The notes beneath the pieces were generated by a model. The model was not told the origin of the DNA and did not search any database. It was given only the letters and a program-made list of their open reading frames with translations. Positions 3,399 to 58,550 of a stretch of 64,000 nucleotides of DNA are shown piece by piece (positions within the stretch are counted from its first letter, which is position 1; each line of letters starts with the position of its first letter). Origin of the DNA: Azohydromonas caseinilytica (GTDB taxonomy: Bacteria > Pseudomonadota > Gammaproteobacteria > Burkholderiales > Burkholderiaceae_C); contig NZ_JABBFW010000002.1 of assembly GCF_012927045.1 (NCBI RefSeq), positions 414,801 to 478,800 on the forward strand, in the 5' to 3' direction. A program made the translations under genes and the position numbers.

Positions 3399-5618
<2,220 letters not shown>

Positions 5619-38378: not shown

Positions 38379-38455
38379 AGGCGCGTAGCTCAGCTGGTTA
38401 GAGCACCACCTTGACATGGTGGGGGTCGTTGGTTCGAGTCCAATCGCGCCTACCA
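38379..38455 (+). tRNA. tRNA-Val (anticodon GAC)
   Basis: A canonical 77-nt tRNA with encoded CCA. Acceptor AGGCGCG/CGCGCCT, D-arm GCTC...GAGC with GG in the loop, anticodon arm CCACC-TTGACAT-GGTGG (anticodon GAC reads GUC/GUU valine codons), 5-base variable loop GGGTC, and T-arm GTTGG-TTCGAGT-CCAAT. It is a useful normal reference for the tRNA-like RNA at 54848-54972. Confidence 0.98.
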
Positions 38456-54443: not shown

Positions 54444-54847
54444 GCGTGCCTCCCGTGATGGATGGAAGGGGCAGTCTAGGGGGTGGGGGAGAGAAGGCCT
54501 GCCGGGCATCGCTTCCGGAGCACGGGGCGCATGCCGGTGTCGCCGGGTGGCTGGCTTGCACCTCGCTAGCGCTCGAATACGACTACCGGGGCTGTTTGTC
54601 GTTTCCGGTGGAGACGTTGCCAGGGACGCTGGCGGGCTCCCTGGCGATGTATGGGAAGGAGCCGTGGGCACCTTGGGCGCAGGAGTTGGAACTGGCCGCG
54701 ACGCTGACGCAGAGCGAAGCGATCATCATTTTGCGGCACCAGGAGACGCAGGAGCGGGTGGAGAGGGGTGTAAGCGGCGCGCGCCGGTAGCGCTGTGGCT
54801 TTGACCGCGAATACCCGCTCGTATTACTTGGAGAAATCAGAGAGTAA
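54444..54847. other. Gene-poor stretch at the left edge of the accessory island
   Basis: These 404 bases lie upstream of the SDR gene and downstream of the tRNA-like RNA. The first half is GC-rich spacer. The second half carries the coding-like fragment annotated separately. Between 54795 and 54847 the sequence turns AT-richer; on the minus strand ATTACT and AGTAAT (about 54823-54848) could form a weak hairpin after the RNA's CCA end, but no strong terminator is visible. Confidence 0.5.
54572..54790 (+). pseudogene. Possible C-terminal gene remnant
   Basis: A 72-codon open stretch ending at TAG 54788-54790 has the codon usage of the chromosome and a protein-like composition (FPVETLPGTLAGSLAMYG, WAQELELAATLTQSEAIIIL). 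I do not recognise a family. It has no credible start with a ribosome-binding site, so it may be the tail of a gene cut off when the neighbouring island was acquired. It could also be chance. Confidence 0.25.
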
Positions 54848-54972
54848 TGGTGGCCGGTGAAGGAATCGAACCTTCGTCTTCCCTACACAAGCCAATGCTT
54901 ATTAGCTTGTGTAGGGAAGCCGCGGGATTTCTCCCGCGACCTAGGAACGCACTGCCACTGTGCTAACCGGCC
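54848..54972 (-). ncRNA. tRNA-like RNA with acceptor, D- and T-arms but no anticodon arm
   Basis: Read on the minus strand from 54972, this 125-nt sequence has: acceptor GGCCGGT/ACCGGCC (54966-54972 with 54852-54858, 7 bp perfect), U8-A9, D-arm GCAC-AGTGGCA-GTGC (4 bp, canonical A14 and GG), T-arm GAAGG-TTCGATT-CCTTC (5 bp, canonical TTC-R-A loop), discriminator A and encoded CCA (54848-54850). Between D- and T-arms, where a tRNA has anticodon and variable arms, there is a linker GTTCCTAGGT, a 7-bp hairpin CGCGGGA-GAAA-TCCCGCG (54921-54938), one G, and a 15-bp perfect hairpin (54905-54919 with 54878-54892, 12-base loop). No 7-base anticodon loop with U33 can be formed against these stems. It begins two bases after the stop codon of the HEPN gene. 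RNase P and elongation factors should recognise its elbow; translation use is not expected. Confidence 0.8.
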
Positions 54973-54973
54973 C

Positions 54974-55906
54974 TTAGTCGGTTAACCAACCAAGTTCAGT
55001 CAGTATATCAACGACTTCAGCATCAGACATGAGCAACGCTTCCTTCATGAAGTTGGTGGCAGCATTTTTTCTTCGTGCGTGTGACAAATTACCGTATCGA
55101 CGTGCCAGCAGAGGTATCGTGATCTGCGAGTCATTGAGTACGTGCCTACATAGCCACTTGGCTACGTCTTGCCAAGCTTTAGAACAAAGTAGTGCATCGT
55201 TTGAGTTTAGATCGCCATAGCGGCTTGGCCTCAAGCCGTAACGGGACAATATGGCCTCATGAGGAAGTGCTTGCCATTCGGGCTCAAGAATTCCTGTGCC
55301 TTCGTCGCTTTCAGTATGAAGTTCCATGTTCCGCACAAGTCGGTAGTAGTTGACCGTTTCAAACGAAGGTGTGGTTTTTATTTTTTCGGCTTCTTTTTGA
55401 ATTGCCGAAACTAGGCGTTTCTCAGGGCTGGAGCTGGCCCAAACCGTTAGTGCAAGCGTCTTAGTAATAAAATCGCCCTCGTCTAAGGCGCGCGCCAAAG
55501 TTTGGTCCTGCGTCTTAAGGGTTCGAATTTCTGCATGCGATCGAATGCGCTGACACAATGCATCTCCCGCGCTAAACACATAAGCTATATGGGAGAAAAC
55601 TAAGTATGCTCGCGCATTTTTAAACGCTTCTCCTTGTAGGTGCAATGAATGGAATCCCTCTGTTTTGGCTATATCTCGAATAAATATGCTTTCGCTCGGT
55701 TGTTCGGCGATCTTCTTGGTGAATGTTCTTGCTGCTAGTTCGAGCAGGGCAAGGTGTAAATTGTGTCGACCGAGAGAGCGTCGAAAATTTCGCTCCATAT
55801 CACCCGGGAACCACTGTTGATCTTGTGTGTGTTCCCGCGCGCCTTGACTTCTAGCGTTAGGCTGCGAAAGAGTCGTCCTAGGTTTTGATTTTGTGTTTGT
55901 TGTCAT
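54974..55906 (-). CDS. HEPN-motif protein, candidate RNase (310 aa)
   Basis: No close family is recognised. The predicted all-alpha protein carries NYYRLVRNMELHTESDEG, in which R192-N193-x3-H197 fits the catalytic RX4-6H motif of HEPN ribonucleases with the usual polar residue after Arg. HEPN enzymes are metal-independent RNases common in toxins, Abi proteins and Cas13. The N-terminus (about 40 residues) is polar and disordered. Base composition and codon usage are much more AT-rich than the flanking chromosome, a sign of transfer. The stop codon is followed after one base by the tRNA-like RNA, and a small ORF ends 17 bases upstream, so the three are probably one transcript. ATG 55906 lacks a strong ribosome-binding site; ATG at codon 37 is an alternative. 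The HEPN assignment rests on one motif. Confidence 0.65.
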   Translation of the reverse strand: MTTNTKSKPRTTLSQPNARSQGAREHTQDQQWFPGDMERNFRRSLGRHNLHLALLELAARTFTKKIAEQPSESIFIRDIAKTEGFHSLHLQGEAFKNARAYLVFSHIAYVFSAGDALCQRIRSHAEIRTLKTQDQTLARALDEGDFITKTLALTVWASSSPEKRLVSAIQKEAEKIKTTPSFETVNYYRLVRNMELHTESDEGTGILEPEWQALPHEAILSRYGLRPSRYGDLNSNDALLCSKAWQDVAKWLCRHVLNDSQITIPLLARRYGNLSHARRKNAATNFMKEALLMSDAEVVDILTELGWLTD

Positions 55907-55923
55907 GATATTGCTTGAATAAA

Positions 55924-56154
55924 TTAAATCGACTGATTTTCTTGCTCCTGCATATAGTGGAGCAACAACGCTAGTCCAAGCTCCTCGCCTGCGACAGTCT
56001 GAATGGCGTTAGAGTAAGAGCGAGCCTCTATCATGCTGTCGTAGAAGTTCGGCAATCCAACAATGTTAAGGCGAATCATGATTAATAGGCTGCTACCAAA
56101 AGCGGTCCCGCGCAATTTTGCATACAACAGTTGCAGTTTCAGAAATTTTGCCAC
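55924..56154 (-). CDS. Small ORF upstream of the HEPN gene (up to 76 aa)
   Basis: A short reading frame from GTG 56154 (or ATG 56076, 50 residues) to TAA 55924, same direction as and 17 bases ahead of the HEPN gene. The C-terminal half (DSMIEARSYSNAIQTVAGEELGLALLLHYMQEQE) looks like amphipathic helix and is AT-rich like its neighbour. No family is recognised. It might be a small antitoxin or regulator, or a leader peptide; coding status is not proven. Confidence 0.4.
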   Translation of the reverse strand: MAKFLKLQLLYAKLRGTAFGSSLLIMIRLNIVGLPNFYDSMIEARSYSNAIQTVAGEELGLALLLHYMQEQENQSI

Positions 56155-56722
56155 TCTCTTGATGCGGTAACGATCAAAACAGGAGGCTCATGTGACTTTT
56201 TCACGCTGTGTAGGCTACGTAAGCATGAGGCTTTCATATAAGCTTTATTGTGCTCAATTGGTCGAAGAATGAACTTCACACGGAATAACACGAAGCATCA
56301 CGATATAAATTAAAGCGACGCACTGTCGCTGGACATCGATGTAGAGGCATATACTGCCTGCACAGAGCAGTTGAAACTTAAAAATTCTGCGCATTTGAAT
56401 TGAACGAGCTGATGCAGATACTTCTTGAAGTAGAATCACCGGGAAGTGGTTTTGGCACTACCGGTACGGCTTCGGTTTAAGTGATTAAGTCGTCTTGTTG
56501 AAGCGAGAGGCTGGTTTGGGGAGAAGCCGTCCTTCACCGAATGTGTTCCTGGGGGGGGGTCGTGTCTGTTGCGGTCTCGAATATCACAAGAGCCGACGCT
56601 GAGTAGATAGTCAACGTTTGAAATAAAAGACGTGCCCCGGTTCGTAGGCGCGCTTCCTCTCGATGGAAGGCTTTATACGTCGTTGGGCATAATTATCGGC
56701 AAATTACAACAGGAGCCAACCC
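56155..56722. other. AT-rich intergenic region between the HEPN unit and the SIR2 gene
   Basis: This 568-base divergent gap should hold the promoters of both units. I could not settle on one for either. A 61-codon minus-strand frame (56254-56439) exists; its start (RRIFKFQLLCA) resembles that of the small ORF upstream of the HEPN gene (AKFLKLQLLYA), and the DNA around 56110-56155 and 56350-56395 is recognisably similar, so an old partial duplication is likely. A run of nine G occurs at 56551-56559. Confidence 0.5.
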
Positions 56723-58150
56723 ATGCCAATGAATTACAAGCAGTACCAAGAGGAGGTCACCGCTGATGTCGCGAAGGTCCTCCGCGATGCCGAGTGTCAG
56801 CCAATTCTATTCGTCGGTTCTGGGTTTTCAAAGCGGTACGGGAAGGGACCGAACTGGGAGGAACTGTTGACAGCGCTTGCCAAGAAGTGCCCGCTCATCG
56901 ACAAAGACTTTGCCTACTATAAGCAGGCGCAAAAAGGCGATCTCAAGAAGATTGGCTCAGTATTCACTGATCTTTACCGGGAATGGGCATGGGGCAAGGG
57001 CAAGAGTGAGTTTCCTGCCGAGTACTTTAGTGCGACGGCGCCCGCGGACATTTTCATCAAGCATATGATCGCAGAGCTGCTGAAGAACCTCGGACCTAAC
57101 GCCAAGGGATCGTATGGCTCGAAGGACCTTGACGCAGAAATCGAAGCACTCAAAAACATTAGCGCGCATGCCATAATTACTACGAACTACGATCAGATGC
57201 TCGATCCGCTGTTCCCCGAGTATGAGCCTATCATCGGGCAGCAAATCATGCGGAAGGGATACCTAGCGATCGGAGAGATTTTTAAAATCCATGGTTGCTG
57301 CACGATACCGCAGTCGATTGTCGTCAACGAAGCAGACTATCAACGGTTCGATGAGGATCACAAGTACCTCAGCGCAAAGCTCCTGACGTACTTCATTGAG
57401 CACCCGCTCATCTTCATCGGCTACCGTGCTGACGACCCGAACATCAAGGCGATTTTGTACGACGTATACCGCATGGTGCGCGCTTCAACTGCAGACATTG
57501 TCCCAAACATCTACATTCTGCAGTGGGACCCGTCGATTACCGATGATTCGAACCCCGCGCGTGAGTACGTTATTTCAGTCGCGCCGGACATCAATATCCG
57601 GATAAAAAGCATCACCGCGAACTCCTTCGAGTGGGTTTTCAAGGCGTTTGGTCAAGCTGGCAACCTCGAAAAGATCAACACCAAGCTCCTACGCGCTCTA
57701 ATGGCCCGGTCGGTCGAGCTAATTCGGTCAGATATCCCTAAAAAGTATGTCGAGATCAATTTTCAGCAACTGGAACACGCCGTTGAGTCAGGTGAGAACT
57801 TTGCGAAGCTGTTTGGTGTCACATCGCTCGCTGATCCATCGAAGGTTAACCTGGATTACAAATACACTATCAGCGGTGTTGCGCAGCAACTTGGCTTCAC
57901 TTACTGGTATCCGGTTCGTGTGATGATCAGCAAAATTGCAGAGGAAACCGGATTCGACATCACGGCAACGGATAACAAATACCACATCGCGTATAAGATC
58001 GGCCACAAGTCGGACCAGCTTACGCATAAATACACCGAAGCTGCCGTTCAACTCTTCCGGAGGTACCAAAAGAGTGAGCCTTTGCAGCTTGACACTGGTG
58101 CCGTGGACGTCGACAAAACGTCCGTTGCCGCAGCCGTAGCCAAGGCCTGA
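56723..58150 (+). CDS. SIR2-family protein, probable NAD-consuming defence effector
   Basis: The 475-residue protein has an N-terminal SIR2 domain (about 20-260): ILFVGSGFSKRYG (31-40), IITTNYDQMLDPLF (TTNYD at 153-157), FKIHGC (His190) and IFIGYRADDPNIKAIL (231-245). The Asn and His used for NAD hydrolysis in defence SIR2 proteins such as ThsA are therefore present. The zinc cysteines of deacetylase sirtuins are absent. The C-terminal 200 residues match no family I know and may be the sensor. AGGAG lies seven bases before ATG 56723. It is divergent from the HEPN unit and shares its AT-rich character, so both belong to the same acquired defence-type island. Confidence 0.82.
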   Translation: MPMNYKQYQEEVTADVAKVLRDAECQPILFVGSGFSKRYGKGPNWEELLTALAKKCPLIDKDFAYYKQAQKGDLKKIGSVFTDLYREWAWGKGKSEFPAEYFSATAPADIFIKHMIAELLKNLGPNAKGSYGSKDLDAEIEALKNISAHAIITTNYDQMLDPLFPEYEPIIGQQIMRKGYLAIGEIFKIHGCCTIPQSIVVNEADYQRFDEDHKYLSAKLLTYFIEHPLIFIGYRADDPNIKAILYDVYRMVRASTADIVPNIYILQWDPSITDDSNPAREYVISVAPDINIRIKSITANSFEWVFKAFGQAGNLEKINTKLLRALMARSVELIRSDIPKKYVEINFQQLEHAVESGENFAKLFGVTSLADPSKVNLDYKYTISGVAQQLGFTYWYPVRVMISKIAEETGFDITATDNKYHIAYKIGHKSDQLTHKYTEAAVQLFRRYQKSEPLQLDTGAVDVDKTSVAAAVAKA

Positions 58151-58550
58151 ATGCCTTCGACTGCGACAAACCGTCGAACAAGGACGAATGCGTCTTGGCT
58201 TATGTAAAGACCTCCGGCTCGCACCATATGCTCGGCGCACTTGCGGGTAAGTGCATTTGGTGTTGGAGTTCCGGTCGCGCTTGGATTTTCATGACGGCAC
58301 GGGTAGAAATGCTCCTGCTACAGAGCAGTCATTCAGTGGCGGCCGCCGGCAGGCAGCAATGGGCATTAAGTAGTCTTTCGGATAGTAGAATTTACCCTAT
58401 TCTTTATCCGAGTCTGAAATATTTGCCGTCATGCCGTCTAATGCCAGCACCAACCGTAACCAAGACACAGACCGGTAATCATAGACGCCGGCCTACGTCG
58501 GTGTAATGAGAAAATCCCAGTCGATCAGACGAACCGGAGTGCCGCACCGC
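58151..58550. other. Right edge of the accessory island, no gene seen
   Basis: Four hundred bases after the SIR2 stop with no convincing frame; a 103-codon plus-strand frame at 58195-58506 has no ribosome-binding site and unnatural composition. No integrase remnant, tRNA or direct repeat that would define an attachment site was found. The composition returns to chromosomal inside the following gene rather than at its boundary. Confidence 0.5.

Follow-up and report, generated by a model that had tools for sequence, protein, structure and literature searches.

A tRNA-like RNA with a long hairpin at the anticodon-arm position, at the 3' end of a probable HEPN-type ribonuclease gene

The locus raises the question of what an RNA with the body of a tRNA might do at the end of a protein-coding gene. 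The window, by which we mean the whole 64,000-nucleotide stretch of Azohydromonas caseinilytica DNA that was analysed, carries a 125-nt tRNA-like RNA on the reverse strand at 54848-54972, with its 5' end at 54972.

Fold and conservation of the RNA

An earlier note on this DNA had described a tRNA-like RNA with an acceptor, a D arm, a T arm, U8-A9 and an encoded ACCA, and this description was borne out. The cloverleaf core is complete (7/7 bp in the acceptor, TA at positions 8-9, 4/4 bp in the D stem, 5/5 bp in the T stem, ACCA), and the minimum free energy of -72.1 kcal/mol compared with a shuffle mean of -38.68 (z = -8.84, with 0/200 shuffles reaching it). The RNA at this position is real. 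Between the D and T arms the note had placed a 10-nt linker and hairpins of 7 and 15 bp, which had to be redrawn, since the computed structure has a linker of 7 nt, a 10-bp hairpin with a GAAA loop (hairpin 1) and a 17-bp hairpin with a 4-nt loop (hairpin 2, Table 1). The linker is nearly palindromic, and a dimerising role is conceivable. A possible second acceptor 5' half, GGTTGGT, lies in the last codons of the upstream gene (54985-54991, reverse strand) and can pair with the 3' half via G-T pairs.

Table 1. Coordinates of the genes and RNA segments. Positions are those of the window unless a locus is named; "relatives" are relatives of the HEPN-type protein.
Feature	Position	Strand	Remarks
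SIR2-domain gene	56723-58150	+	Divergent from the HEPN-type gene; Pfam SIR2_2 4.8e-20, PADLOC PDC-S25 7.3e-84
HEPN-type gene, 310 aa	54974-55906	-	Stop codon 1 nt before the RNA
RNMELH motif codons, residues 192-197	55316-55333	-	R, N and H invariant in 8/8 relatives
Acceptor stem 5' half, GGCCGGT	54966-54972	-	7/7 pairs; double-sided changes at 5/7 pairs over six RNAs
D arm, 4 bp, loop AGTGGCA with GG	54949-54963	-	4/4 pairs in six RNAs
Linker, 7 nt	54942-54948	-	Bases 27-31 (TTCCT) can alternatively pair with AGGGA, the usual place of an anticodon stem, at a cost of ~11 kcal/mol in the window
Hairpin 1, 10 bp, GAAA loop	54918-54941	-	Insertion; not in L036 or L040
Hairpin 2, 17 bp, 4-nt loop	54880-54917	-	Anticodon-arm position; no 7-nt anticodon loop
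Variable loop AGAC, 4 nt	54876-54879	-	C48 suits a Levitt pair with G15
T arm, 5 bp, loop TTCGATT	54859-54875	-	T54 T55 C56 R57 A58 in 6/6 RNAs
Acceptor 3' half and encoded ACCA	54848-54858	-	CCA encoded in 4/6 RNAs
HEPN-type relative, alphaproteobacterial	L041:4878-5864		3' end without RNA
HEPN-type relative, alphaproteobacterial	L042:4950-5897		3' end without RNA

A scan for cloverleaf cores returned three rows in the window, namely the tRNA-Val at 38379 and two registers of the tRNA-like RNA; 200 mononucleotide-shuffled versions of the window, each scanned on one strand, yielded a single core. ARAGORN, and Rfam with gathering cut-offs, called that tRNA-Val as the sole RNA of the window and not the tRNA-like RNA; a permissive Rfam scan scored 10.7 bits for a tmRNA family, confined to the T arm. 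Neither a terminator nor a promoter specific to the RNA was detected above chance level. A covariance model, R1, was built from the first three RNAs, those of the window, Leeia oryzae (L004) and a Gallionellaceae bin (L005). It found one copy of the tRNA-like RNA in the window genome, and its other 8 matches there were 75-76 nt long; five of the eight were checked and all five were ordinary tRNAs. The closest host tRNAs by R1 (43-48 bits) were tRNA-Val in the window and Gallionellaceae genomes and tRNA-Phe in Leeia. Thus no single tRNA ancestor is picked out.

Eight distinct relatives of the neighbouring gene were collected, the window included, and six of them carry a tRNA-like RNA at the gene's 3' end. 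The RNA-bearing six are the window, L. oryzae, the Gallionellaceae bin, a group of enterobacterial plasmids (L024), the genome of locus L036 and a Bernardetia plasmid (L040), and among them the protein identity to the window drops to 19%. L. oryzae and the Gallionellaceae bin (46% and 44% identity over the alignment) were the two results when one genome per species, for 84,980 species, was scanned by pattern, a method that picks up close relatives only. A tblastn search with the L005 protein matched 49 enterobacterial plasmid records (E = 5e-6); these are near-identical (100.0 or 99.3% to the query copy) and were counted as one relative, L024, represented by the Enterobacter copy, while plasmid NZ_CP090910.1, with two partial copies, was left out of the analysis. 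R1 matched L024 with 60.4 bits (E = 5.8e-13). A four-protein profile run over 398 phylum genomes gave L036 (E = 5.2e-9), which belongs to the same class as the window. Its RNA was recognised by reading and by the Rfam tRNA model (54.4 bits, correct strand), R1 reporting the complement strand only (25.5 bits). The L036 protein in turn led by tblastn to the plasmid of Bernardetia (Bacteroidota; E = 4e-4), which carries the RNA (33.2 bits with the Rfam tRNA model; 31.3 bits and E = 3.2e-6 with R1). Two partial, weak protein matches (L034 and L035, E ~0.008), with no RNA by R1, were dropped from the eight.

The earlier note had named, as support for its reading, compensatory changes in homologues lying next to a HEPN gene, and such changes were found. 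Over the six RNAs, the 16 acceptor, D and T pairs are all formed with two exceptions in the T stem, where L005 leaves one pair unformed and L024 has one pair fewer, and 10 of the 16 show double-sided changes. In the three closest RNAs, with all hairpins included, 98.4% of cells are paired and 12 of 42 pairs are changed on both sides; 0/500 shuffles reached either the pairing or the double-change figure, and sliding the partner strands left 36.1-52.5% paired. The structure used for these three is a consensus of the same sequences and so favours them, and the six-RNA count is the better witness. Within the three close homologues, double-sided changes occur at 5/10 pairs of hairpin 1 and at 4/13 lower pairs of hairpin 2.

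The elbow bases (GG in the D loop, TTCRA in the T loop) accompany the acceptor, D and T arms in 6/6 RNAs, and T8 A9 is present in five, L040 having a single A in that register. In the five RNAs with a clear Levitt site (L024 left out), positions 15 and 48 are G15/C48 in three and A15/T48 in two, a pairing that fits an L-shaped tRNA body. These patterns indicate that the structure of the RNA is under selection. When the core scan was applied to both strands of 276,664 bases of collected loci, it gave 47 ordinary-length cores and 8 long-insert rows, the latter being the window RNA (two registers), L004, L024 (one base off register), L036 and three insert-bearing phage tRNAs; its strict rules overlook the L005 and L040 RNAs.

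The anticodon region

The note had stated that the molecule has no anticodon arm and cannot decode. A recognisable 7-base anticodon loop was found in 0/6 RNAs, the predicted apical loops measuring 3-10 nt, and the RNA should indeed not decode; the arm itself is not simply absent, being replaced by a long hairpin. In L036 and L040 a single hairpin occupies the anticodon-arm position, reaching 19 bp with a 5-nt loop in L036 and containing mismatches in L040. This lone hairpin identifies hairpin 2 as an elongated anticodon arm, and hairpin 1 with the linker as an insertion present in four of the six. The claim is further qualified by L024, in which constraining the core stems brings out a short anticodon stem beneath two hairpins; the unconstrained best fold of this RNA lacks the D arm.

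Bases 27-31 can pair with bases 39-43 in all six RNAs (4-5 of 5 pairs, with a 3-nt variable loop assumed for L024), a count that is uncontrolled, had several registers tried and includes close homologues that are not independent. With the core stems fixed, this stem belongs to the best fold in L024 and L040, whereas it is 2.6 kcal/mol worse in L036 and 9.6-10.9 kcal/mol worse in the window, L004 and L005. In each of the four RNAs that contain hairpin 1, one strand can be claimed by either the linker or the base of hairpin 2, and this competition may be a relic of a tRNA ancestor or a switch. The encoded CCA of the note stands for the window; among the six RNAs it is found in four, L004 ending in GCTA and L040 in ACTA.

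One explanation of this region would be an odd decoding tRNA from which an anticodon-loop intron is spliced, as in insert-bearing phage tRNAs. The Rfam tRNA model matched L005 (45.3 bits), L036 and, in a permissive search only, L040, and its alignment gives L005 and L036 an anticodon stem with a large insert; the 27-31:39-43 stem is possible throughout, and RefSeq labels the plasmid copy tRNA-OTHER, with no comment. The same model did not match the RNAs of the window, L004 or L024, and ARAGORN called no tRNA at the RNA sites of the relatives. An intron-bearing tRNA is nevertheless very improbable, as neither a conserved anticodon nor a 7-nt loop with U33 was seen, the would-be intron consists mostly of hairpins and varies in length, the L036 hairpin runs on from the stem position to its loop, and a tie to one protein family is not expected for a tRNA.

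In viral contigs, the D-arm pattern was matched in 11 contigs, seven of them being a tRNA-Thr called by ARAGORN at the match, and the others (L006, L010, L011, L014) interrupted or cut off. The phage sequences L006:2409-2574 and L014:1406-1571, both on the reverse strand, are tRNA-Thr-like with an insert of ~94 nt in the anticodon region; ARAGORN misses them and they look intron-bearing. A second insert-bearing tRNA of this phage cluster, at L014:4051-4164 (reverse strand) and tRNA-His-like by eye, has an insert of ~40 nt and keeps its anticodon stem.

The HEPN-type gene and its surroundings

The note had implied a neighbouring HEPN gene. The protein, P0001, does contain the motif RNMELH, and RNxxxH occurs in 8/8 relatives, in agreement with the HEPN ribonuclease motif R[N/H/D]xxxH as defined in PMC12373285; a family assignment was not obtained, with P0001 matching nothing in Pfam, PADLOC or NCBIfam. 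The scanned HEPN-type proteins as a set gave nothing above cut-off or E 0.01 in these three collections. AlphaFold2, given three sequences, modelled P0001 as entirely helical (mean pLDDT 73, pTM 0.66). A Foldseek search of the PDB with the model of the HEPN-type protein returned 258 matches when E values up to 10 were admitted and none at E <= 0.001, and a PDB sequence search gave seven rows for A1 (best E 0.047, judged chance) and none for A6. The label HEPN is used here because of the RNxxxH motif and the helical make-up, from which we consider the protein a probable HEPN-type ribonuclease.

Two relatives lack the RNA at the gene's 3' end. They were obtained by tblastn with the Bernardetia protein, in Rhizobium (L041, E = 4e-10) and Methylobacterium (L042, E = 2e-11), and neither reading of their 3' ends nor ARAGORN, Rfam or R1 revealed a tRNA-like RNA there. 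Upstream of the Rhizobium gene, R1 had a weak match (L041:4509-4624, forward strand; 11.4 bits, E = 0.35) with a T-arm-like stretch, the fold of which is no better than shuffles (z = -0.04); it is possibly a decayed or chance tRNA-like element and was excluded from the RNA count. The best non-self match of the Methylobacterium protein is that of Rhizobium (34%, E = 2e-30), ahead of Bernardetia, and this places the two RNA-less relatives on one branch, which does without the RNA or has it elsewhere.

The pair of gene and RNA is rare and scattered, in the manner of mobile modules. Protein or profile searches of partly overlapping genome sets matched 1/399 genomes in the window's family, 1/369 in its class and 1/159 in a further class set (its own in each case), 3/399 in its order (its own and those of Leeia and the Gallionellaceae bin), and 2/398 in its phylum (its own and L036). 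The order of the L036 genome gave 1/155 (itself), and the family of the Gallionellaceae genome 3/100 at E <= 0.01 (itself and two weak partial matches). Tblastn searches of phage records with P0001, P0002 and P0004 gave no match, P0001 had no match among plasmids at 1e-5, and protein or alignment searches of viral contigs confirmed no relative.

The RNA is single and lies downstream of the HEPN-type gene in 6/6 loci. Its 5' end follows the stop codon by 1 nt in the window, 14 nt in Leeia and 10 nt in the Gallionellaceae bin, and the RNA overlaps the reading frame by 15 nt in L024, 10 nt in L036 and 14 nt in L040, so that in the latter three a cut at the 5' end of the RNA would remove the stop codon of the message. 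The RNA might accordingly be an expression-control tail acting in cis only, with RNase P and tRNA 3' processing keeping toxin output low by trimming the 3' end of the HEPN mRNA or taking away its stop codon, and with the excised RNA left jobless. The placement at the stop codon in all six and the three frame overlaps are in keeping with this. However, a plain tRNA would suffice for that purpose, yet the hairpin shape has been kept through compensatory changes, a long hairpin of 17-19 bp is retained from L036 to the window, and in the three RNAs that follow the stop codon cutting leaves the frame intact. We consider such a tail unlikely.

In the genome of L036 (locus L037), the open reading frame and the RNA lie between two attC-like sites inside an array of such sites, as judged by eye, and look like one integron cassette holding both parts. 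That the HEPN-type frame and the RNA lie between the two sites argues that two parts suffice. The array is chromosomal and integron-like (L037:5079-6910, attC-like sites by eye), and one of its frames (5109-5453) encodes a phenylalanine run from a TTTTC-type repeat.

The settings of the RNA-bearing loci are mobile or defence-like, comprising a low-GC insert by a SIR2 gene, plasmids and a position beside an AbiJ-like gene. In 500-base steps, the GC content of the window is 0.436-0.614 from 54500 to 58499, 0.706-0.746 before and 0.640, 0.734 and 0.718 after, and the low-GC stretch was probably acquired. The AbiJ-like gene lies downstream of the HEPN-type gene and RNA in the enterobacterial plasmid (L024:6562-7380; Pfam Abi_C, PADLOC AbiJ 3.4e-11). 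In the Gallionellaceae locus, a Mrr-type restriction endonuclease is encoded at L005:742-1632 (reverse strand; Pfam Mrr_cat 2.3e-26), separated from the HEPN-type gene by a transposase. As tRNA genes are common integration sites, the RNA could be an integration remnant, a damaged tRNA at an island edge, for which the GC-poor insert within a GC-rich genome would speak. This is barely plausible, because plasmids and an apparent integron cassette also preserve the fold, with compensatory changes, and its place at the end of the HEPN-type gene does not vary.

The layout with a divergent SIR2-domain gene recurs in Leeia (L004:3551-5059, reverse strand; PDC-S25 2.6e-158). No SIR2 gene was found near the other four RNA-bearing loci, either among the annotated neighbours (L024, L040) or in ten open reading frames compared with Pfam (L005, L037). 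Relatives of the SIR2 gene were matched in 83 plasmid records, and four SIR2-carrying plasmids (L026-L029) examined with R1 had no tRNA-like RNA. One plasmid SIR2 relative is close to what is annotated as a type III toxin gene (ToxN/AbiQ). The SIR2 gene is a possible third component or an independent defence neighbour; its occurrence in 2/6 loci and the RNA-less plasmid relatives make it probably a neighbour and not a part.

A further explanation is that the RNA activates the HEPN protein as a cofactor, guide or sensor, for instance by reading changes made to tRNAs by phage (cleavage, CCA removal, modification) or by targeting through the long hairpin. In the three closest RNAs the sequence of hairpin 2 varies while its pairing is kept, the strand exchange with an anticodon-type stem is the best fold in L024 with core stems fixed, and the SIR2 gene adjoins in two loci. 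The hairpin is self-paired, which leaves no guide strand exposed; for the window, L004 and L005 the alternative fold is ~10-11 kcal/mol less stable, and SIR2 was seen in 2/6 RNA-bearing loci. An activating role is improbable on balance, and a guide RNA proper was rated unlikely for the reason that the variable hairpin pairs with itself.

A proposed two-part module and its comparison with known systems

The reading that we prefer, at roughly even confidence, is a two-part module in which a HEPN-type ribonuclease toxin is restrained by a tRNA-mimicking RNA encoded at the 3' end of its gene. It is favoured because the RNA sits at the gene's 3' end in 6/8 relatives, the stems covary and the motif is invariant, and weakened because L041 and L042 lack a 3' RNA, Foldseek and the family searches lend no support, and the free fold of L024 has no D arm.

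If this reading is correct, the RNA would probably come from the same transcript as the HEPN-type gene and would be matured in tRNA fashion, by RNase P, out of the 3' end of the toxin mRNA. It would then bind the HEPN protein as a substrate look-alike and keep the enzyme off, uncuttable because long hairpins replace the anticodon loop. Its excision would spoil the toxin message, and in the three loci where the 5' end lies within the frame, one toxin mRNA would be lost per RNA matured. Phage infection or plasmid loss may halt the supply of the RNA or remove it, and the freed enzyme would cut RNA, most plausibly the anticodon loops of tRNAs, with growth halting as a result.

More tentatively, and with some doubt on our part, the non-decoding tRNA shape may serve as antitoxin and tripwire at once for a HEPN nuclease that attacks tRNAs, in what would be a new class of ribonuclease module under RNA control. 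The mimic would be made and kept by the cell's own tRNA machinery, so that a phage interfering with tRNAs or their processing, by degradation, titration or alteration, would disarm it and free the nuclease; the competing anticodon-type stem could act as a switch.

Toxins of the HEPN type with RNA partners are known. AbiF is a HEPN toxin neutralised by an adjacent ncRNA (PMC12373285), and the AbiF/AbiD (Abi_2) systems with RCd22 resemble the present pair in having a HEPN-motif toxin gene, an adjacent structured ncRNA and mobile or defence settings. RCd22 lies before abiF and has two repeated motifs, whereas the RNA described here is single, tRNA-shaped and at the 3' end. No Abi_2 domain was matched by Pfam in the six RNA-bearing proteins, and the abiF RNA motif (RF03085) was found neither in the window nor at the loci of the relatives. 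The proposed direct restraint of a ribonuclease toxin by an RNA encoded alongside would be analogous to type III toxin-antitoxin systems (ToxIN, AbiQ, TenpNI, CptNI). The antitoxins of these are repeats before the toxin gene (PMC12373285), in contrast to the single RNA after the gene, and Pfam found no ToxN/AbiQ match among the scanned HEPN-type proteins.

Among tRNA-like RNAs, YrlA (a bacterial Y RNA) has tRNA-like D, T and acceptor arms and is non-decoding (PMC7790460 and PMC8394870), and the former suggests YrlA as a competitive inhibitor of an anticodon nuclease. The window RNA shares the D, T and acceptor module. The ends of YrlA pair into an Rsr-binding stem, whereas those of the window RNA make up the acceptor, and its partner is a HEPN-type gene; no rsr (Ro60) gene was seen among the annotated neighbours of L024 and L040 or the ten open reading frames of L005 and L037, coverage in the window and L004 being the HEPN and SIR2 genes. 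The tRNA-like domain of tmRNA is likewise a tRNA mimic without an anticodon arm, with a T arm and CCA (PMC8394870). ARAGORN found no tmRNA in the window, and the best Rfam tmRNA score was only 10.7 bits over 17 nt. Both identities were set aside.

As for the enzyme, PrrC and RloC are HEPN anticodon nucleases acting on tRNA (PMC3710099), an enzyme type for which a loop-less tRNA would by analogy be a fitting decoy; the HEPN-type proteins differ from them in that Pfam placed them in neither family and matched no ATPase domain in them. PADLOC had no model for P0001, its PDC-S25 match belonging to the neighbouring SIR2 gene. Among the matches listed from open-licence PMC papers, none described a tRNA-like RNA as the partner of a HEPN gene. 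HEPN proteins with a neighbouring ncRNA are a known kind of system; a partner of tRNA shape at the 3' end is, so far as can be told, a new variant.

If the two-part module is correct, a tRNA would have been refashioned as the regulator of a probable defence ribonuclease, in distant bacteria and on mobile elements. Annotation programs overlook such an RNA or file it as an odd tRNA, as with the RefSeq label of the plasmid copy, which prompts a second look at unassigned tRNA calls that overlap gene ends. The pair also offers a small and direct test of how tRNA-cutting enzymes stay silent and of what frees them.
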